This document shows, in pieces, positions 19,063 to 53,306 of a stretch of 64,000 nt of DNA; the stretch's first letter is position 1; the number at the start of each line of letters is the position of its first letter. Location: the NCBI GenBank assembly GCA_040881665.1, contig JBBECT010000004.1:878303-942302 (forward strand), written 5' to 3'. The notes under the pieces are model-generated. The model did not search any database. It worked only from the letters and a program-made list of their open reading frames with translations, and was not told where the DNA came from. The stretch is from Actinomycetota bacterium (GTDB lineage Bacteria; Actinomycetota; UBA4738; HRBIN12). Made by a program: the position numbers and the translations under genes.

Positions 19063-19144
19063 GGGAGGATGCCCGAGCGGCCAAAGGGAGCGGTCTGTAA
19101 AATCGCCGGCGTAGCCTACGAAGGTTCGAATCCTTCTCCTCCCA
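19063..19144 (+). tRNA. tRNA-Tyr (anticodon GUA)
   Basis: The acceptor stem pairs GGGAGGA (19063-19069) with TCCTCCC (19137-19143). The anticodon stem GCGGT/ATCGC encloses the loop CTGTAAA with anticodon GTA. A long variable arm (class II, as for bacterial tRNA-Tyr) and a T arm with GGTTCGAATCC follow. The discriminator is A and CCA is not encoded (CCG follows). Mobile-element sequence starts within a few bases of the 3' end, so the tRNA may have marked an insertion site. Confidence 0.95.
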
Positions 19145-19220
19145 CCGAGGGGTGTTCTCGAAACTACGCGCCGTGTCATCTCGAAACCCCCTTAGGAAGC
19201 GTCCGCGAACCCTGATCGAG

Positions 19221-19290
19221 GGCGCCGGGTCCGTTCGGAACACGATGCGCAAGAGGATCGGCTCTCCGGAGCTGCTCGAACATGCCGAAG
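19221..19290. repeat. 70-base repeat shared with 56228-56297
   Basis: The stretch from GGTCCGTTCGGAACACGATG through CTCGAACATGCCGAA recurs near 56235-56297 with only a few differences. It lies within or at the edge of the mobile element here and between an amine-oxidase relic and the duplicated kinase fragment there. Neither copy looks coding in its own right. Confidence 0.7.
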
Positions 19291-19320
19291 GGCGTCACGA
19301 GGCATGCTCGTGACGCCCTT
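19288..19320 (-). terminator. Perfect hairpin downstream of transposase remnant 1
   Basis: AAGGGCGTCACGAG and its exact complement CTCGTGACGCCCTT (14 pairs) enclose a 5-base loop. It lies just past the transposase stop. A similar hairpin with the same AAGGGCGTC/GACGCCCTT arms lies after transposase remnant 2 (26379-26414), so it belongs to the element. There is no clear U-tract. Confidence 0.55.
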
Positions 19321-19357
19321 GAAGGAGCGGTGGGGGGAGCCGGTGGAGCGGGACCGT

Positions 19358-20165
19358 CTAGTCGGGCGGCGGGTCGCGACCTGAGGCGACCTCGTCGGCG
19401 TGTCCGAGCAACTGCGGGAGGGTCCCCGTACGCCGCCTCGCCCGGACCGGCTTGGCCGAGGCGGAGGCCTTGGCGCGGGCGACGAAGGACCGGATGCGGT
19501 CGAGGTTGTAGCCGACGGCGGAGAAGGTGAGCATCACCGCGGTCTTGACGAGGCCCATCACCCTGATGTTCTTCCGCGCGATGTTCACGAACCCCCCCTT
19601 CAGCCCTGCGTTGGCCGCCTCGGCGACCTGGCGCCGGCCCATGGACTTCCGCCAGGCGGTCGTGCCGGGCGGCAGGGTCTGCCACCACACCAGATCCTCC
19701 GCGGACGCAGTGATCGTCTTGGGGCAGCAGGCACTGCCCTCGGGCAGGTCGACCATCGGGACCGTGGGCGCGCGCCGCATCGTGTGCGGGATCGCGCGCG
19801 AGCGGAGGTACCCCGAGCTGAACGGGCACCGCCAGCGCGTCGTGCCGTCGGTGTCGGGTTTGACGTGGCGCTGGTAGCGGAACCGGGCGCGCCGGTTGAA
19901 CGCCTCCTCGTAGAGCGTGGTCTCCTTCGGCCCCGACCCCATCGGCGGCATCGGCAGCTCGCCGCGCAGCTCCTCTGGCACGTGGTCGCTGAACAGCTGC
20001 CCCTCGATCATCAGGACGCCGTCGGCGAACGGCTTGCTCGCCCGCTGGTGGCGATGCGGGCGGAATGTGTGTTCGATCCCCGCGCTGCGCAGTGGGTAGA
20101 CGGTGGTCTCCGGCCTCAGCTGTGAATAGCCCCTGTCCCAGATCACCTCGTCGATCTCCTGGCCC
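19358..20165 (-). pseudogene. DDE transposase, N-terminally truncated (remnant 1)
   Basis: About 265 C-terminal residues of a transposase remain. WDRGYSQLRPE carries a probable catalytic Asp, and GRRQVAEAANAGLKGGF carries a probable catalytic Glu. The first catalytic Asp region is missing. The C-terminus (GYNLDRIRSF, then RRTGTLPQLLGHADEV) matches remnant 2 at 26449-26808 and the relic at 63043-63140. An open frame continues to 20341, but residues before about 20165 do not resemble transposase. I do not name the IS family with confidence. Confidence 0.75.
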
Positions 20166-20183
20166 TCCCCTTCCGAGATTTCG

Positions 20184-20221
20184 ACTTCGCGACCTCTACG
20201 CGAACCCGGAGGTCGCGAAGT
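20184..20221. repeat. 13-base perfect inverted repeat
   Basis: ACTTCGCGACCTC (20184-20196) and GAGGTCGCGAAGT (20209-20221) are exact complements separated by 12 bases. The site lies at the broken edge of mobile element 1. It could be a terminator of a lost gene or a recombination site. On the plus strand it reads as a plausible protein end (LRDLYANPEVAKLLAKHDSD, then a stop near 20257), so it may be part of a truncated gene. Confidence 0.5.
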
Positions 20222-20329
20222 TGCTTGCGAAGCACGATTCTGATTCCCGCAGCTCCTAGAACGCTCGACTCTAGGGAAGAGGCTGTGACGATGCGACGCG
20301 ATCGAGAGCATTCCGGCGACTACGCGAGA

Positions 20330-20418
20330 GGGGGCTCGCAAGCCTCGCGAATCAGTACCTGCAGAACGCGATGCGTGTCGGGAACCGGGTCGTCAACCCG
20401 TTCGGACCGCAGTTCTAG
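20330..20418 (+). pseudogene. Short C-terminal gene remnant, unidentified
   Basis: One plus-strand frame ends with ASLANQYLQNAMRVGNRVVN then PFGPQF and a TAG at 20416-20418. It has protein-like composition but no start and no recognised family. It lies in the 230 bases between mobile element 1 and the next gene, together with the inverted repeat at 20184. Confidence that it was ever a gene is low. Confidence 0.3.
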
Positions 20419-20767: not shown

Positions 20768-21135
20768 ATGGCTACGAATCCTTGGGGCTCAAGCTCCGAC
20801 TCTCCGTGGGGCTCTTCCAGCACGGCCAACCTGCCTCTGATCGACGAGGAGGGGGGCCAATCGGGTCTGTTCGGGTTCCTCCAGAACCTCTTCGGCGACT
20901 TCGGCGAGATGGGCGAGGGGATCGCCTCCCTGGGCGGCTCGGCCATCCACGATGCCGGACGGGGCCTGGCCCAGCTCCTGCCCGGTGAGCAGAACTGGGG
21001 CGTGGTCAACGACACCGACCAGCGTGGCTACCTGCTCGACGACATCGCCGCGGCGCTGCCCGGAGCCGTCGCAGGCGACTACTCGGCCCGGTACGGGGGC
21101 GAGGGCCTGGACGAGGTGGGCCAGCAGCTCTACGC
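20768..21135 (+). pseudogene. Unknown protein with NPWGSSS repeats, 3'-truncated
   Basis: The ATG follows AGGAAACCGCCGCTAG. The protein starts with a low-complexity NPWGSSSDSPWGSSS segment, then an amphipathic glycine-rich region (GLFGFLQNLFGDFGEMGEG) and an acidic tail. From about 21135 the frame (which stays open to 21583) runs antisense through the phosphatase-like gene on the other strand, so the true 3' end is lost. The convergent gene is cut at the same point, which makes this a deletion or recombination junction. The function is unknown. Confidence 0.5.
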
Positions 21136-21829
21136 GCTTGTCCTCATCGCGGAAGTTGGCGATCGTCTCGGCCACGTCCCGGAGCACGAAAGCAAGGTTG
21201 GGGTTCACCGCCGGCTCGTCGTCGTCGACCAGCCACACTTCGAGGTGGTCGAAGTCGTGGGGTACGTCGTGCGTCCCCATCCGGCACAGCGAGACGACCG
21301 CGTCAAACTCGACGTCGGCCAGTGCCGCCACGTCCCCGACGAGAACGCCTGGGTCTTGGGGGAGCGAGGTAACGAAGCCCGACGGCCGATACCGCTTCAT
21401 GTAGTAGGGGACCAGGTACTCGGCGGCGGGCCATCCCGTCGCGTCGGCGCCGTCGTGTCCGAGATCGGCGACGACGGCACGCATCACGAGGTCTCGGTCC
21501 GTGAGCGGTCTGCTCCTCGTGAGGAGCAGACGGTCCCGGAGCCGCAACGTCGAGACTCCCTTGGTCGCCCCGAGCACCGCTAACTCGCTCGCCTCACCGA
21601 CATCGAGCCGACCGCCTACCGCACCAGGGAGGTCGGCTGGGTGCGTGGCCAGGACATCGGAGACCTCATCGGCGATCCGGACCGATGCGTCCTTGTCGAG
21701 ATGCGAGCGCATCGTGCCGATGCCCGCACCGACCATCGCGCCGATCGATTCGTGGAGGCCCATCGAACACAACGTATCCGTTGCCTCCGACGCCATGAGC
21801 AGGAGGTCTGACGCCTGACGGAGTGTCAT
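21130..21829 (-). pseudogene. Dual-specificity-phosphatase-like protein, cut before its catalytic loop
   Basis: From the ATG at 21829, residues 1-120 are a helical region of unknown family. Residues about 175-233 (FDAVVSLCRMGTHDVP, then FDHLEVWLVDDDEPAVNPNL) resemble small dual-specificity phosphatases. Where the HCxxGxxR active-site loop should come, after DEDKRV, the sequence changes to the antisense of the gene at 20768. The active site is therefore missing. Its start is only 46 bases from the divergent MBL-fold gene at 21876, so the two may have shared a promoter region. The family call is moderate and rests on one block. Confidence 0.5.
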
Positions 21830-21875
21830 TGCTGGCGCGTAGGATGCGTTCAGGCTCAACCAGATCGGAACTGGC

Positions 21876-23129
21876 ATGAAGGTCCGGATCCACCGCGGCG
21901 CGCACGAGATCGGGGGCAGCTGCGTCGAGGTGGAAAGTGCTGACGGTGACCGACTCGTGCTCGACGTTGGGGCGCCGCTCGTCACTGTCGAGGGTGAAGA
22001 GCCCACGGTGCCGGCGGTCGATGGTCTCATCGAGGAGGACCCGGCCCTCAAGGGTGTCGTGATCACCCACGCGCACCAGGACCACTGGGGGCTCGTGGAC
22101 AAGACGCTTCCGAGCGTCCCGCTGTACATGGGCGAGGCGACACACCGGATCTTGAAGGATGCCGCGTTCTGGGTCAGTGGCCTCACGCGCACCCCCGCAG
22201 GGTCCCTCTCCCATCGCGAGCCGTTCGAGCTCGGCGGCTTCCGCATCACGCCGTTCCTGAACGACCACAGCGCGTTCGACGCTTACTCGCTCCTCGTGAA
22301 GGCCGACGGACGACGGCTCTTCTACACCGGCGACATCCGCGGACACGGTCGAAAGGCGGGCATCTTCGAGCAGCTCCTGCGCAAACCGCCGAAGGATATC
22401 GACGTCTTGCTGACCGAGGGGACCAACATCCGCCCCGCAGACAATGGTGAGGCAACCGAGCCGACCTCGACCGAGACCGACGTCGAGCACGCGTGTGTCG
22501 AGCTGTTCAAGGACACGCCGGGCATGGTCCTCGCGATGTACTCGGCTCAGAACATCGACCGGCTCGTGACGCTGTACCGAGCCGCGAAGCACACCGGCCG
22601 GACCCTCGTCATGACCCTGTACGGCGCCTCGATCGCGGAGGCGACCGGGAACGAGAACATCCCGAAGGCGGGTTGGGAGTTCGTCCGCGTGTTCGTGCCG
22701 GGCTGGCAACAGGCGAAGGTCAAGGAGGCCGGCCAGTTCGACCGGGTGGACCAGATCAAGTCCTGTCGCGTGTTCGAGGAGGAGCTCGCAGAAGACCCGT
22801 CCCGCTGGGTGGTGTCGTTCGGTATGCCGATGGCCACGAGGCTCGACAAGGTCGGATGCTTCACCGGAGCACATCTCATCTGGTCGATGTGGCCCGGGTA
22901 TCTGAAGGACGACAAGCAGAAGCCGCTGCTTGCCTTCCTCGAGGAGCGGGGGATCCCGCTGACGATCGAGCACACGTCGGGACACGCCTCGATCCATGAC
23001 CTGCAGCGGCTCGCCGAGGCGCTGGCGCCGGAACGTGTCGTGCCGATCCACTCCTTCGGCGCCGACCGCTTCGACGATCTGTTCGAACACGTCGAGCATC
23101 ACCCCGACGGTGAGTGGTGGAAGGTCTGA
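21876..23129 (+). CDS. MBL-fold metallohydrolase, RNase J-like
   Basis: The product has 417 residues. It opens like RNase J (RIHRGAHEIGGSCVEVE) and carries the zinc motif THAHQDHWG (residues 64-72), a further His in LNDHSAFDAY (about 131) and Asp in FYTGDIRGHGR (about 157). The C-terminal EHTSGHASIHDLQRL and VVPIHSFG blocks are those of beta-CASP/RNase J-type nucleases. It is shorter than housekeeping RNase J (about 550 residues) because the C-terminal domain is absent. It is the first gene of a plus-strand run to 26072, with 11 bases to the next gene. An RNA substrate is likely by family but not shown. Confidence 0.8.
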   Translation: MKVRIHRGAHEIGGSCVEVESADGDRLVLDVGAPLVTVEGEEPTVPAVDGLIEEDPALKGVVITHAHQDHWGLVDKTLPSVPLYMGEATHRILKDAAFWVSGLTRTPAGSLSHREPFELGGFRITPFLNDHSAFDAYSLLVKADGRRLFYTGDIRGHGRKAGIFEQLLRKPPKDIDVLLTEGTNIRPADNGEATEPTSTETDVEHACVELFKDTPGMVLAMYSAQNIDRLVTLYRAAKHTGRTLVMTLYGASIAEATGNENIPKAGWEFVRVFVPGWQQAKVKEAGQFDRVDQIKSCRVFEEELAEDPSRWVVSFGMPMATRLDKVGCFTGAHLIWSMWPGYLKDDKQKPLLAFLEERGIPLTIEHTSGHASIHDLQRLAEALAPERVVPIHSFGADRFDDLFEHVEHHPDGEWWKV

Positions 23130-23140
23130 AAGGAGTCCCG

Positions 23141-24031
23141 ATGCCGGAGAAGCTGTTCAACCGAGCGCTGAGCACGGCTGGTCTCGAGAAGTTCGAGAAG
23201 GAGCCCTCTTATACAGCGCTCCTTCAGTACTGTCGAGCCGACCCTTCCCTGTCGATCTTCCTACGCGGCAAGACCGTGGACGTCTACTGGGAAGGCTTCG
23301 TCGTGTTCCACGTCGTGGTCTCGACCGGCCGGCTCCAGATCGGGTCGGCCAGCGACGCGCCCGTGCCAGGGTGGCCGACCTCACTGTCCGAGATGGATCC
23401 GGCCAGGCTGCCCGAGTACATCGCCGGCGTGAAGGACCGTCGCGCCGTCAAGGCAGCGACGAAGATCCCTGAACTCCGGTTCGAGGCTGGAGTGATCCGT
23501 GACAACCAAGGGGTGGGTGGCCCCGTGGCGGTCCTCGACCGTCAGGTCGCCGGTCCCGGAGGCCAGGACCAGCTGGACCTGATGCTGCTCGACGTGGGGT
23601 CGTCCAGGCTGGGGCTCGCGGAGCTCAAGGTTGTCGGCAACAAGGAGATCGGGGGCGCGGTACTCGGTCAGCTCGAGCGCTACCTCGAGGCGTTCGGAGA
23701 CCTAGGCCCGGCCTATGGGGACGTTTACTCCCAGATGAGGCACCTCGGATTGGTCGCGAACCGGAACGCGACGGTGCTGCCCAACAAGGAGCCGATCCCG
23801 ATCCTGATGCTTGCTGGCGTCCCGGTGAGGAAGTTCGGAGCGGAGTCCGACGATCCGCTGTTGCACGCCCTCAAGATCGCGAACGACAAGAAGGTGACGA
23901 TGCACAAGGGGTGGGACGCGCGGATGATCGTGTTTCCGCGTCACATCGATCAGTCGTTCTCGATCCCGACGTCCCTCGAGGACCTCCCGACGATCTCGAC
24001 ATGGTGTCGCCGGAACCTCTCCGACAGCTAG
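23141..24031 (+). CDS. Unknown protein with a possible PD-(D/E)XK nuclease core
   Basis: The product has 296 residues, with an ATG behind AAAGGAG. Residues 146-163 read as a strand with Asp (LDLMLLDV), a turn, then LGLAELKVV. The Asp plus Glu161-x-Lys163 pattern fits the D...ExK active site of restriction-like nucleases. This is followed by a helix (GAVLGQLERYLEAFG) as expected for that fold. No other family is recognised. The MBL-fold gene is 11 bases upstream and the CxxC protein 11 bases downstream, so all are probably co-transcribed. The nuclease call is inference from a short motif. Confidence 0.5.
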   Translation: MPEKLFNRALSTAGLEKFEKEPSYTALLQYCRADPSLSIFLRGKTVDVYWEGFVVFHVVVSTGRLQIGSASDAPVPGWPTSLSEMDPARLPEYIAGVKDRRAVKAATKIPELRFEAGVIRDNQGVGGPVAVLDRQVAGPGGQDQLDLMLLDVGSSRLGLAELKVVGNKEIGGAVLGQLERYLEAFGDLGPAYGDVYSQMRHLGLVANRNATVLPNKEPIPILMLAGVPVRKFGAESDDPLLHALKIANDKKVTMHKGWDARMIVFPRHIDQSFSIPTSLEDLPTISTWCRRNLSDS

Positions 24032-24042
24032 GAGTCTCAGCG

Positions 24043-24435
24043 ATGCGCGATCACAGATGGATGGGACTGGGGACCGCGGAGTTCACCGACGCGCAGGCGT
24101 TGGAATGGGCGACGCTCGACGGCGCCACCGACGCGCCGCTCGAGCTGAACATCGCCCAGGTCGTGTGTCTGATCTGCGACGCGCCCTACGTCGACACGGT
24201 CGATGGCTGCCCCGGACCGCTGGATCGGCCGGCCCGCCACCGCTGGGTCTCGATGATGACCGTCGCCATGACACCGGAGGAGGCAGCGGGGTGGGCAGAC
24301 CCTGCACCGATGGAGGGTCTGGACGTCCGTCCTCGCTCGACCAACCTTCTGTGCGCCCTCTGCGGACAGCCATATGAGCAGGCGGAGGACGCGTGTCCCG
24401 AACGTGCCTTCTGGATCTCGACCGGTTCTGAGTGA
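24043..24435 (+). CDS. Small cysteine-rich protein, probable zinc knuckles
   Basis: The product has 130 residues. It has two similar Cys clusters, CLICDAPYVDTVDGC (about residues 42-56) and CALCGQPYEQAEDAC (about 104-118). Each has CxxC followed by PY and a third Cys, so they look like an internal repeat that may bind zinc. The ATG has AGGAG 9 bases upstream. The stop overlaps the next start (GTGA). The family is unknown. It could be an adaptor for the neighbouring nuclease-like proteins (inference). Confidence 0.55.
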   Translation: MRDHRWMGLGTAEFTDAQALEWATLDGATDAPLELNIAQVVCLICDAPYVDTVDGCPGPLDRPARHRWVSMMTVAMTPEEAAGWADPAPMEGLDVRPRSTNLLCALCGQPYEQAEDACPERAFWISTGSE

Positions 24436-25214
24436 GCCAGGCCCCGGACGACAGGAGGCACCAGATGAAGGGCAAGTTCGAGGGGGAGGATGGGGGTGTC
24501 CTCGGGACGCTCGCGAACAGGAACCTCCGGAACGCTGCATCCTGGAGGATCACTTCGGAGATCTGCCGGCGTTATCCGCAGGACACCTTCATCCTCGATG
24601 CGGTGCCTATCGTCGGCGTCGATTACGACTGCCTTCGTGTTGCAAGGCTGGATGGAGCTGGATGGATCGAGTTCAACCGCAACTCGACGGGCAGCGCCCA
24701 TCGGCTCGTGGCTGACCTTGAAGAGGATGTGTGGCCAGCCTTCTTGATGGAGTGGATCTCCGTTGCCGATCGCCGGAATTTCGTACGGAGGGTGTCGGAG
24801 TGGTTCGGGCTTCCGCGTGTCGCGCAACTGCCACCGACGACCCGGCGGACCCTCGCATACCGGGCGCTGGCTGGGTTCCTTCAGGCTCACGCCATGGATC
24901 GACATAGGTGGAGCGTCGATGGCGCAGCGTTGGTCGACGACATGGATCAGCCTCATCGTCGCCACGAGCTCATCAAACGGTTCAAGGATGTCCGGATCGA
25001 ACGACCGAAGGGTGGCGGACCGATGAACACGGTGACGGAGCCAGCCTTCTCCGTGTGGTTCATCTGCAGAAACGAGTCACCTCTCGTGTACGTGACCGCA
25101 GAAGCGCAAGCGACGAACCGGAAAGGAGTCGAGGTAGACCTGTTCGACACGTACTCCCGGACGAAGCGGATTGATGATGTCATCGCCCAGCTCGCGTCCC
25201 TGATGCCGCGATGA
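24432..25214 (+). CDS. Unknown protein of the nuclease-like operon
   Basis: This 260-residue soluble protein is rich in charged and aromatic residues (FILDAVPIVGVDYDCLRVAR, EEDVWPAFLMEWISVADRRN). There is no membrane segment or recognised motif. The GTG start overlaps the CxxC gene stop, and its own stop overlaps the start of a 42-residue ORF (ATGA). This makes it part of a tightly coupled set. An internal ATG at 24465 is an alternative start. Confidence 0.5.
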   Translation: MSQAPDDRRHQMKGKFEGEDGGVLGTLANRNLRNAASWRITSEICRRYPQDTFILDAVPIVGVDYDCLRVARLDGAGWIEFNRNSTGSAHRLVADLEEDVWPAFLMEWISVADRRNFVRRVSEWFGLPRVAQLPPTTRRTLAYRALAGFLQAHAMDRHRWSVDGAALVDDMDQPHRRHELIKRFKDVRIERPKGGGPMNTVTEPAFSVWFICRNESPLVYVTAEAQATNRKGVEVDLFDTYSRTKRIDDVIAQLASLMPR

Positions 25215-25339
25215 ACGCTCAGGCGATGCAGGCGATCGAGGGCCGGCGCGACAGGCTGAATGCCGCGATGCTGGGTACGCGCCGCTTGGAAACGTCTGGA
25301 GCCAGCGACGGTCTCTGGAACGAGCTTCACCCAGAGTAG
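25211..25339 (+). CDS. 42-residue ORF coupled to the upstream gene
   Basis: The ATG at 25211 overlaps the stop of the 260-residue gene in an ATGA junction and the frame runs to TAG at 25337-25339. The peptide is polar and probably helical (MNAQAMQAIEGRRDRLNAAM), followed by a less structured tail. No homology is recognised. The overlap geometry is the main support. It could also be the start of a truncated gene. Confidence 0.35.
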   Translation: MNAQAMQAIEGRRDRLNAAMLGTRRLETSGASDGLWNELHPE

Positions 25340-25400
25340 CCGAGCGCGACCTGCGCCCATCTCGCACTCGACTGAGGTGAGCGAGAGTACGATTCCCGGG

Positions 25401-26072
25401 ATGGAACGGGCTGGGCTGTGGTACAGCGAGCTGCGCAACCTTGCCCTCACCCACCGGTCCTACGCCTTCGAGCAGGGACTCGATCGCGTCACGGGCACGA
25501 ACGAGCGCCTCGAGTTCCTCGGGGATGCCGTGCTCGGGGTCACGGTGGCACAGATGTCATACGCCGCCTACCCGGACAGGCCGGAGGGCTGGCTCGCGAA
25601 GCTTCGCGCGGCGATCGTGAACGAGTCGGCGCTCGCCGACGTCGCGCGGGAACTCGGTCTCGGGGACGAGGTCAAGCTCGGCAAGGGCGAATTGGCCTCG
25701 AATGGCCAGGACAAGGACAGCATCCTCGCTGACACGCTCGAAGCCGTCATCGGGGCGATGCACCTCGGCCTCGGACCCGACGCAGCTCGCGCCTGGGTCG
25801 AGGAGTTGTTCCGCCCCCGGATGGAAGCTTGGGCGGGGGGCGAGGACCCGGAGAACCGGGACTACAAGACGGAGCTCCAGGAGATCGCCGACATGCCGCC
25901 CGTGTACCAATACGAGGAGAGCGGACCCGACCACGAGAGACAGTTCACCGCCACCGTGGACATCGACGGCAAGTCACTCGGCAAGGGCTCCGGACGATCC
26001 AAGAAGGAGGCCGAGCAGCGCGCCGCGCGTGAGGCGATCTCACTGCTCCGCGCTGGGAGTCGCGAGGGCTGA
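25401..26072 (+). CDS. Ribonuclease III family protein
   Basis: The product has 223 residues. The RNase III signature NERLEFLGDAVLG lies at residues 34-46, and the second acidic pair is in DTLEAVIGA (Asp111, Glu114), so the catalytic site looks complete. A C-terminal dsRNA-binding domain starts near residue 150 (YKTELQEIAD, later GSGRSKKEAEQRAAREA). The length is normal for bacterial RNase III. The setting is not the usual one with smc or rpmF, and it follows the nuclease-like operon inside an island, so it may be an accessory copy. The ATG at 25401 was chosen because the domain begins there. Confidence 0.88.
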   Translation: MERAGLWYSELRNLALTHRSYAFEQGLDRVTGTNERLEFLGDAVLGVTVAQMSYAAYPDRPEGWLAKLRAAIVNESALADVARELGLGDEVKLGKGELASNGQDKDSILADTLEAVIGAMHLGLGPDAARAWVEELFRPRMEAWAGGEDPENRDYKTELQEIADMPPVYQYEESGPDHERQFTATVDIDGKSLGKGSGRSKKEAEQRAAREAISLLRAGSREG

Positions 26073-26151: not shown

Positions 26152-26275
26152 TGCTGTGGGAGGTACCTCTCTTAACCTGTGGGAGGTCCTCCAGAAGTGC
26201 CGCAAACCGTGTGGCCAGGGAGTTATGAGAACCCCACCGTTGGGGTGTTCTCAAAACTGGGGCCCCTGACATCTC
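26152..26275. repeat. Mobile-element terminal repeat region (copy A)
   Basis: The stretch starting CTGTGGGAGGTACCTCTCTT and running to about 26240 is closely matched at 53218-53305 (copy B), with a weaker match at 59990-60066 (copy C). It contains the palindromes GAGGTACCTC and GGAGGTCCTCC. It ends in two element ends placed back to back: TGAGAACCCCA, then a short spacer, then TTGGGGTGTTCTC. This resembles abutted inverted ends of an insertion sequence or a small non-autonomous element. Confidence 0.6.
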
Positions 26276-26378
26276 AGAACTCCACTGAAGAGGCGCCCGG
26301 CGGTCGGTTCGCGCGATCGGGGGCTGGATTCGGTCGTTCGGCAGTCGACGCGACGGGCGATCGGCGCTCGAGAAGCAC

Positions 26379-26414
26379 GAAGGGCGTCACCGGAACATGC
26401 CGGCGACGCCCTTC
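26379..26414 (-). terminator. Hairpin downstream of transposase remnant 2
   Basis: GAAGGGCGTCACCGG pairs with CCGGCGACGCCCTTC (one mismatch) around a 6-base loop. It has the same arm core as the hairpin after remnant 1 and lies just past the transposase stop at 26449 on the minus strand. Confidence 0.5.
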
Positions 26415-26448
26415 TTCAGAGGTGAGGTGTTCTTCGAACTCGGGCTGG

Positions 26449-26808
26449 TCAGCCCGGAGGCGGTGAGCGGCCGGACTCCGGACGATCAGAGCCGATCACG
26501 TCGGTCCACGTCCCGGTGCGACGCTTCTTCCTCGTCCTCTTCGGCGGCGCCGCGGTGCGCTCCGCCTCCTTCTTCGAGAGGAACGAGCGGATGGCCTCGA
26601 GGTTGTAGCCGGCCAGGGTGAAGGCCAGCAGCAGCGTCATCTTCGCGAGGCCGAAGACGCGCAAGAATTTGTGCTGGATGTTGACGAAGCCTCCCTTCAG
26701 CATCGCGTTCACGCCCTCGACCACCTGACGCCTGCCGTAGGAGATGCGCCATGCCGTGGTCCCCGGGAGGAACCTCTGCCAGTGAGGAAGCTCGGCGGCC
26801 GATGCCGG
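26449..26808 (-). pseudogene. Transposase C-terminal fragment (remnant 2)
   Basis: The C-terminal 120 residues align with remnant 1: LPGTTAWRISYGRRQVVEGV, then NAMLKGGFVNIQHKFLRVFG, then GYNLEAIRSFLSKKEAE. The Glu in QVVEGVNAM is the probable last catalytic residue. The N-terminal two thirds are missing. In frame it is joined directly to a broken glycosyltransferase at about 26808, so one open frame (26449-27237) reads through both. Confidence 0.75.
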
Positions 26809-27621
26809 GGACAGGTAGACGGCCTTCCCCTCGCCGGGCACCTGCTCGTCCACGTCGAACGGCTCCTCAGAGGTTCGAACGGTCGACTGCAGCCGGTGCC
26901 AGGTCGTATCGAGGGGGACCGAGCGCGGGTAGTTGACCACCTCCGGGAACAGGTACAGGTTCAGCAACGGCGAGTGCGTGTTGAACTCGGCGGGTGGGCA
27001 CGGCTCCAAGCCGACGGAGACCCTGAACTCGTTGTGTTCGGCCAGCGGGTCCTTGTGGACTCGGCGATACTCGTTCCGAAGACCTGCCACCTCCCTCCGG
27101 TCGTCGGTTGGCAACCCAGACAGAGGGGGCGGGAGATCCGGATCGCGCATCTCGAGCGGGTTCGCGGAGACGAAGCGCGCCCACGGGCATCCAGCAAGCT
27201 CGACGGCGGGGAAGCCCGTGACGTTGTCCGTACACACGACGTCCGGCCGGATGTCGTTTCAGATCTCCATGAGCCGGTGGTGCGAGTACCTCACGCCGGC
27301 GACCAGCGCCTCCCAGATCGGCGGCGTGACGGTCGCCTGGCTGCTCGATCGTCGGCTTGCGGAACTCCGGCGACGTGACGCGGATGAACTCGGTCCAGGA
27401 TCCGCGGTCGGATCCGCATCCTCTTGAGGCGGCGCCATCCGCATCGCACGCTCCCCGAAGCCTTTCGCTTCCAGGAGCCCTTCGAACGAGGAGTCCACGA
27501 CGAACACCACGCGTTGTCCTCGCCCGCGGAGCACCTCCGCGATTGCGATGCAATTGTTGGTTGGACTCCACGCACCGGGCTCGGGGAAGAAGGCAATCGT
27601 CCTCGCGTCTCCTACTTGCAC
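26809..27621 (-). pseudogene. Glycosyltransferase (UGT/MGT type), broken and 3'-truncated
   Basis: From the GTG at 27621 the frame starts like a UDP-glycosyltransferase (IAFFPEPGAWSPTNNC, then RGQRVVFVVDSSFEGLLEAK). A short central part (FIRVTSPEFRKPTIEQ) is in another frame, so there are compensating frameshifts. The original frame then resumes (WEALVAGVRYSHHRLMEI) and meets an in-frame TGA near 27258. Homology continues after it (NDIRPDVVCTDNVTGFP through EPFDVDEQVPGEGKAVYLS). At that point, before the nucleotide-sugar-binding half, it is cut by the transposase fragment. It has several inactivating changes and is a true pseudogene. Confidence 0.75.
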
Positions 27622-47553: not shown

Positions 47554-47689
47554 CGCTGGCCAGCTCGCCGGGTCCACCGGGTGAGTGCATTCCCCCTGCT
47601 CAGGGTGGTGTGGGTGGTCGGGTCCTTACCGCGTGGGTGCTCCTCGAGAGGGCCGGCACGGCGCAGGTCACCGGGGTTTCGAGTACACC

Positions 47690-47736
47690 CCACCGACCGA
47701 CCAACTGACCAACCGACCGACTGACTTACTTACATA
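47690..47736. repeat. Degenerate tetranucleotide repeat
   Basis: A run of GACC, AACT, AACC, GACT and TTAC units lies after the FAD oxidoreductase fragment and before the gene at 47819. This low-complexity DNA is unlike the surrounding sequence and may mark a recombination junction. Confidence 0.6.
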
Positions 47737-53215: not shown

Positions 53216-53306
53216 CTGCTGTGGGAGGTACCCCTCTTAACCTGTGGGAGTTCCTCCAGAAGAGTGGGAAGCCGTGTGGTGAGGGAGTTCTGAGAACACC
53301 CCACTG
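53216..53306. repeat. Mobile-element terminal repeat region (copy B)
   Basis: It matches copy A (26152-26240) over about 85 bases: CTGTGGGAGGTACC, CTCTTAACCTGTGGGAG, TCCTCCAGAAG, and then GAGGGAGTTCTGAGAACACC. The end is the complement of the TGGGGTGTTCTC terminus seen at 19149 and 26244. The element body is not present here. Confidence 0.65.

Follow-up and report, generated by a model that had tools for sequence, protein, structure and literature searches.

A compact RNase J-like nuclease gene and an exchangeable PD-(D/E)XK-type partner form a widespread, mobile gene pair of probable conflict function

Gene organization of the locus

The window analyzed here is a 64,000-nucleotide stretch of contig JBBECT010000004.1 from an Actinomycetota bacterium. 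Six open reading frames (ORFs) on its plus strand, designated here as genes A to F (Table 1), were found in the order and with the spacing given by a sequence-only reading that preceded this analysis: 11 bases separate A from B and B from C, whereas C and D overlap by GTGA and D and E by ATGA. That reading regarded the six genes as a mobile module cutting RNA and DNA, perhaps for phage defense. Our results support a mobile nuclease module of this kind for genes A and B, which encode a metallo-β-lactamase (MBL)-fold nuclease and a PD-(D/E)XK-like protein, respectively, but not for the remaining four genes. The pairing of A with B is well supported by comparative genomics.

Table 1. Features of the locus, in window coordinates
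Feature	Position	Strand	Description
Gene A	21876..23129	+	compact β-CASP MBL-fold nuclease (predicted), 417 aa
Gene B	23141..24031	+	PD-(D/E)XK-like partner, 296 aa
Gene C	24043..24435	+	130 aa, two CxxC...C clusters
Gene D	24432..25214	+	TY-Chap2 predicted peptide-binding chaperone, 260 aa
ORF E	25211..25339	+	42 aa, ATGA overlap with D
Gene F	25401..26072	+	second RNase III, 223 aa from ATG 25401
tRNA-Tyr	19063-19146		left edge of the set
Left IS1182-like remnant	19150..20341	-	decayed; weak NF033551 and DDE_Tnp_1_6 matches; begins directly after tRNA-Tyr
Right IS1182-like remnant	26243..27237	-	decayed; DDE_Tnp_1_6 1e-4, NF033551 1e-3
Divergent fragment related to ADP-ribosylglycohydrolase-phosphatase proteins	21143..21877	-	linker-plus-phosphatase part; glycohydrolase domain absent, phosphatase end lost

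Gene A encodes a compact β-CASP nuclease

The description of the gene A product as an MBL-fold, RNase J-like protein was borne out by profile searches (Pfam Lactamase_B_2, E 3e-13, and RMMBL, 2e-5; RNase J family, 6e-21). According to the motif scheme for β-CASP enzymes (PMC3095777, PMC7458816), it carries the complete set of motifs 1 to 4 and A to C that defines this family: motif 1 (D30), motif 2 (H65, H67, D69, and H70), motif 3 (H131), motif 4 (D153), motif A (E181), motif B (H370), and motif C (H392). All ten catalytic positions were invariant in an alignment of nine diverse homologues. A His in motif C goes with RNA substrates, whereas a Val is found in DNA-acting β-CASP members (PMC3095777); the gene A product, with its His at position 392, is therefore of the RNA type and is predicted to act on RNA as a β-CASP nuclease of the RNase J/CPSF73 kind. 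It shares the MBL and β-CASP motifs, including the motif C His, with RNase J, TTHA0252, and CPSF73. Unlike RNase J, however, it is short (417 residues versus ∼550–555), lacks the RNase J C-terminal region, scores far below the cut-offs (74.5 bits against TIGR00649, for which RNase J proper requires 400), and is accessory and patchily distributed. The closest solved structures are those of the uncharacterised EF2904 (2az4, 5e-30) and then RNase J1.

Of 199 related genomes, only 6 contained a strong match to gene A, one of these genomes belonging to the source organism's own family, and gene A is therefore, by its distribution, an accessory gene. The source genome itself contains three additional, weaker matches, which were taken to include the housekeeping RNase J. 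With at least 542 relatives in a collection holding one genome per species, the gene A family is therefore common as well as mobile. Existing annotation presents the pair as an "MBL fold metallo-hydrolase" beside a "hypothetical protein."

Gene B encodes a probable PD-(D/E)XK-type protein

The D...ExK pattern noticed earlier in the gene B product corresponds to Asp-146, Glu-161, and Lys-163, which were invariant in an alignment with 24 relatives and make up the PD-(D/E)XK core motif. No family match to gene B was obtained in Pfam, NCBIfam, PADLOC, PHROGs, or the PDB; likewise, the PADLOC models gave no match at E ≤ 1 with genes A to D and F, and hence no named defense system. A confident AlphaFold model built from the 24 sequences (predicted local distance difference test score, pLDDT, 87.9; predicted template-modeling score, pTM, 0.88) showed a helix–strand topology of the expected type. 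In Foldseek comparisons with the PDB, the best matches of this model were PaqCI, then Can2, with MunI lower (E 0.17 or worse, not significant). Against the viral model library BFVD, the best match was Gp54 of phage G (probability 0.96, E 5e-3), followed by several named PD-(D/E)XK proteins. A low-confidence model (pLDDT 66) of a partner protein from another family, fam1, had EcoO109I as its top match (E 0.04), which offers weak support only. Because the Foldseek matches are not significant, the assignment rests on the motif, the topology, and the consistency of the top matches. On the strength of the motif, its invariance, and these concordant matches, we consider it very probable that gene B encodes a PD-(D/E)XK-type protein, with a predicted nuclease activity.

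Gene A is paired with PD-(D/E)XK-type genes in many phyla

When used alone as the query, gene B found nothing among genome contigs, plasmids, and phages. Because B is too divergent for such scans, gene A served as the anchor of a survey of 90 loci (numbered with the prefix L), comprising 80 genome loci from many phyla (ranked highest among at least 542 by a profile built on relatives of A), nine plasmid loci, and the window. An iterated B profile identified a B-family gene adjoining A in 34 of the 90 loci; most of these genes start at, or overlap, the end of A. The order is reversed relative to the window in the related genome G102 (G102/L034), where B directly precedes A. Other neighbors of A belong to several families that have no BLAST-level similarity but possess the same D...E-x-K core, as exemplified by RAIDLVHV...EFIELKV, QVDLWGIS...GFELKTA, and EVDWLLV...VVAEVKI. 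Weak profile–profile matches centered on this core join several of these families to one another (L071–L101, 93%; fam1–L071, 91%; fam8–L023, 77%).

Such neighbors were also counted with a fixed motif pattern, which replaced a stricter regular expression that had undercounted them (37/90) and was evaluated with the same kind of control. The pattern was positive for a neighbor in 53 of the 90 loci versus 16 of 191 matched anchor genes on the same contigs (Fisher p ∼4e-19, a value that near-identical loci make somewhat optimistic). Combining family membership with inspection by eye, we read 79 of the 90 loci as paired, although this is a softer figure.

The pairing was also seen outside the 90 loci. 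Gene A alone found nothing among viral contigs, whereas an alignment of nine A relatives retrieved six loci there; four of five distinct viral-contig loci were paired (L098–L101). Among three intact new loci in related genomes, one had a clear B-family partner (L162), one a probable partner, encoded by a truncated ORF that contains an ELK motif (L161), and one none (L163); the A locus of a further related genome (L164) was frameshifted. The neighborhood survey that the sequence-only reading had proposed as a check thus came out positive for A and B, which stand side by side in different phyla, on plasmids, and on contigs assigned to viruses.

Two alternative partners resemble catalogued proteins: the fam6 partner matched the PADLOC candidate PDC-S26 (E 4e-8), and the L071 partner matched Pfam Tox-REase-9 (E 9e-5). 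PDC-S26, however, is listed by PADLOC as a single-gene candidate with no MBL pair, and the gene B product of the window matched neither of the two. In one partner family (L016, L019, L021, and L059), the lysine of the ExK motif reads as glutamate (VEIEEADVGP); these proteins may have an inactive or variant active site.

A search of the open full-text literature, with subscription papers and preprint servers outside its scope, yielded no description of this pairing. As far as this literature shows, A and B thus represent an undescribed, widespread, mobile gene pair. Its nearest parallels lie in known immune systems. Pairs of an MBL nuclease with a trypsin-like protease recur in Hachiman, AVAST, Lamassu, and DRT contexts (PMC12799240) and resemble A–B in the repeated pairing of an MBL nuclease across contexts. 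Those pairs, however, combine a ComEC-like nuclease specific for DNA with a protease that is fused to a defense enzyme, whereas gene A is RNase J-like and its partner is of the PD-(D/E)XK type; Pfam searches of genes A to F found no trypsin-like protease of the kind present in HamM/Avs1a-type pairs. Cas14 of type VII CRISPR-Cas (PMC10910872) likewise employs a β-CASP nuclease as a prokaryotic immunity effector, but gene A reaches only 25.9 bits against NF045584 (cut-off 800), and no Cas7 or Cas5 was seen among the neighbors.

Partners are exchanged beside a conserved gene A

On a tree of A, 37 partner changes were required for 11 partner labels, compared with a minimum of 10 ("single" and "none" being counted as labels). 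In several comparisons, A proteins that were 76–87% identical stood beside partners with no significant match to each other: A is 87% identical in L042/L055 and in L069/L061, 80% identical in L054/L058, and 76–78% identical between L076 and L074, L077, and L079, with unrelated partners in every case. At the DNA level, L042 and L055 show 89% identity that spans exactly the A gene and nothing beyond it. L054 and L058 have A in common, then different partner genes, and then a common downstream flank again. In Bradyrhizobium, L076 has A and the DNA upstream of it in common with L074/L077/L079, but not the partner. In Nitrospira, the two sequences that flank the pair in L082 adjoin each other directly in L026. 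Since unrelated partners stand beside A proteins of 76–87% identity, once between conserved flanks, these alignments indicate that the partner is replaced and moved as a cassette, beyond mere fast divergence. The pair is carried by some plasmids; it lies beside restriction-modification genes in L008 and within Tn3/Tni transposons in L010, and WYL regulators adjoin it or lie near it in L043 and L015.

This pattern bears on two alternative explanations. First, the pair could be a housekeeping-like RNA/DNA processing or repair pair that spreads horizontally by chance and has no part in defense. The A relatives RNase J and CPSF73 are indeed RNA-processing enzymes, and RecB/UvrD-type or RmuC genes are found in the vicinity of some loci. 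However, processing enzymes seldom swap partners between close relatives as is seen here, the occurrence among the 199 related genomes is very patchy, and the pair is carried on plasmids and viral contigs; we therefore regard this explanation as unlikely. Second, the pair could be a toxin–antitoxin or addiction module in which the PD-(D/E)XK protein would be the toxin and A a neutralizer or clearing enzyme. Such a module would be consistent with the tight coupling of the two genes and their presence on plasmids and islands, with the resemblance of one partner to Tox-REase-9, and with the AbiE-like and Phd-like neighbors (named from sequence only) in L161 and L162. Antitoxins, however, usually co-vary with their toxins, whereas A retains its high identity beside unrelated partners and is itself a complete enzyme, making this explanation decidedly improbable.

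Genes C to F are not part of a conserved unit

Homologues of C, D, and F were found in none of the other 89 A loci. The short gaps and start/stop overlaps, which extend as far as ORF E, were the basis for viewing A to F as one RNA/DNA-cutting module; given the 0/89 result and the distance of F, we give this view almost no credence. A conserved six-gene unit is refuted by the survey, with co-transcription in this one organism still possible.

The two CxxC...C clusters reported for gene C are present in its sequence, and its product probably binds zinc. Gene C had no family match among the Pfam, NCBIfam, and PADLOC profiles and no relatives in 120 related genomes. The "unknown 260-residue protein" encoded by gene D turned out to be a TY-Chap2 protein (PF22553, 5.6e-33), with one relative among the 120 related genomes. 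Genes C and D are local additions. For the coupled 42-residue ORF E, the overlap with D is real, but the ORF has no independent support and no Pfam match.

Gene F encodes an RNase III, as had been claimed: it scored 206 bits against TIGR02191 (cut-off 166) and has the RNase III domains and the double-stranded RNA-binding domain expected of the family (PF00636, PF14622, and PF00035). Its ORF is open from 25260, and the conserved part begins at the ATG at 25401; this is most plausibly the start, 61 bases past E, so that F would not be tightly coupled to the preceding genes. The sequence-only reading had noted that the set would lose its unity if this were the only rnc gene of the genome and stood here by chance. 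In fact, the source genome has two, and the better-scoring one, the housekeeping copy, lies elsewhere directly before mutM. Gene F is the second copy and sits on a long branch, with up to 62% identity to the rnc genes of relatives. Membership of this second rnc in the module was nevertheless rejected because no RNase III occurs in the other A loci and 60 related genomes have essentially a single rnc each. Gene F is thus probably an independent passenger, an extra copy outside the A–B pair.

A possible link to ADP-ribosylglycohydrolase systems in a few loci

The divergent fragment on the minus strand next to gene A is 40–44% identical to proteins from two Actinobacterial A loci (L017 and L039), which are fusions of PF03747 and PF00782 located beside the MBL gene. 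The fragment has no Pfam match of its own, and no PF03747 domain was found in the window at 20792-21877; only the linker–phosphatase part of an ADP-ribosylglycohydrolase (ARG)-phosphatase protein remains. ARG systems as predicted in PMC9503650 (section 3.8) comprise ARG, a phosphatase, TY-Chap2 or vWA proteins, a "rapidly evolving REase" (restriction endonuclease), and WYL or Nudix regulators. The window resembles them in bringing together TY-Chap2, a glycohydrolase–phosphatase remnant, and a fast-evolving restriction-fold gene, with gene D supplying the chaperone of the TY-Chap/SseB/vWA group, and A–B loci in general resemble them in that variable modules are replaced between close genomes. 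They differ in that the window has no intact glycohydrolase and most A–B loci have no ARG gene. Gene D and the fragment together suggest that A–B sits in, or has replaced part of, an ARG-type conflict locus here.

These observations raise the possibility that A–B is the effector arm of an ARG-centered conflict system of the kind predicted by the Aravind group in 2022, which would counter viral ADP-ribosylation. In its favor, one of the two Actinobacterial loci with intact fusions also has a vWA gene, and the published gene set includes a fast-evolving REase. However, an ARG-type gene occurs in only 3 of the 90 A loci, even when the fragment of the window is included, both L017 and L039 lack a PD-(D/E)XK partner, the glycohydrolase domain is missing from the window, and the main text of PMC9503650 mentions no β-lactamase-fold component. 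The ARG link is thus possible and confined to these three loci, and as an explanation of the pair as a whole we consider it rather unlikely. The gene A family is also a possible place to seek the effector arm of the predicted anti-ADP-ribosylation systems.

A candidate conflict module with a constant and a variable part

The reading we favor, with somewhat more confidence than doubt, is that A–B is a widespread, horizontally moving two-gene conflict module with an exchangeable PD-(D/E)XK partner, directed most likely against phages or plasmids. A defense role is likely, and the replacement of one partner by unrelated versions in close relatives is what such a role would lead one to expect. As an observation that is no more than suggestive, the flanking genes matched 58 PADLOC models versus 34 for control genes.

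PD-(D/E)XK nucleases leave 5′-phosphates, and RNase J-type enzymes degrade 5′-phosphorylated ends. In the mechanism we propose, A would be the constant and B the variable part of the module. The exchangeable PD-(D/E)XK protein would recognize and nick or cut changing foreign targets, or would sense infection; its cutting would leave 5′-phosphate ends, and the conserved β-CASP enzyme would then degrade or process the nucleic acid. Alternatively, A and B may act on different nucleic acids within one response. A bolder version, in which the pair would be a new class of prokaryotic immunity where one conserved RNase J-like nuclease draws on a repertoire of interchangeable PD-(D/E)XK proteins, swapped as cassettes next to its gene, with the partner determining what is recognized or cut, is put forward only tentatively, and we lean against it at present.

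Several findings weigh against the favored reading. The count of 79 paired loci includes motif reading by eye, and about 11 of the 90 loci have A but no recognized partner, three of these being at contig ends. The nearest A relative of the window (L017) lacks B, and a B relative was present in only 1 of 150 related genomes (G102). None of the Foldseek matches is significant (best E values 0.17, 0.04, and 0.005). Motif C of A is of the RNA type and PD-(D/E)XK proteins usually act on DNA, so the two may not have a substrate in common. Finally, the PADLOC enrichment is modest, and its control was not phylum-matched, having been drawn from a few genomes of the window's phylum.

If the pair is a defense system, it would join an mRNA-decay-type ribonuclease with a restriction-type protein and show natural partner replacement. 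Loci in which the same A stands beside different partners would then provide ready comparisons of what the variable protein recognizes.

Other neighbors of the pair and flanking elements of the window

A third small family of ∼120–190 aa, with the consensus GIFWxV...HPRGR...HYR and no Pfam match, accompanies the pair repeatedly in Alphaproteobacteria, lying beside the MBL gene in L007, L008, L009, L012, L079, L083, and L090 and in the same locus in L038, L047, and L084, with a weak case in L046; the module may thus include this family as an optional third member. Peptidyl-arginine/agmatine-deiminase-like genes were seen in L035, L101, L014, and L076 (directly adjacent in L035 and L101), and calcineurin-like phosphoesterase genes adjoin the MBL gene in L010, L014, and L072. 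Beside the pair in L161 and L162, genes resembling AbiEii/AbiEi and a NACHT-like ATPase accompanied by a Phd-like antitoxin were recognized by sequence inspection alone.

In the window, tRNA-Tyr was found at the left edge of the set, as reported. An Rfam scan of the window had this tRNA as its sole match, so that the idea of RNA-based control gained no RNA element in its support. The related transposase remnants said to flank the set proved to be decayed, IS1182-like 3′ pieces of insertion sequences (ISs), with DDE_Tnp_1_6 and NF033551 scores below the cut-off in both; they do not mark the ends of a well-defined transposon. The two share an exact 16-base end motif, GGGTGTTCTCRAAACT, at 19150 and 26243 (0.39 chance matches expected when up to three mismatches are allowed), but their bodies are only ∼66–69% alike. 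A composite transposon was therefore rejected; in addition, no att repeat was present, the 3′ end of tRNA-Tyr having been searched for as a duplicate and not found.

Further near-matches to the end motif lie on the minus strand of the window at 47675-47690 and 53286-53301, which suggests additional remnants of the same IS family. At 20768-21137, the beginning of an ORF on the plus strand (MATNPWGSSSDSPWGSS...) appears to continue, near 21140, into antisense sequence of the phosphatase fragment, a boundary that resembles an old recombination junction.

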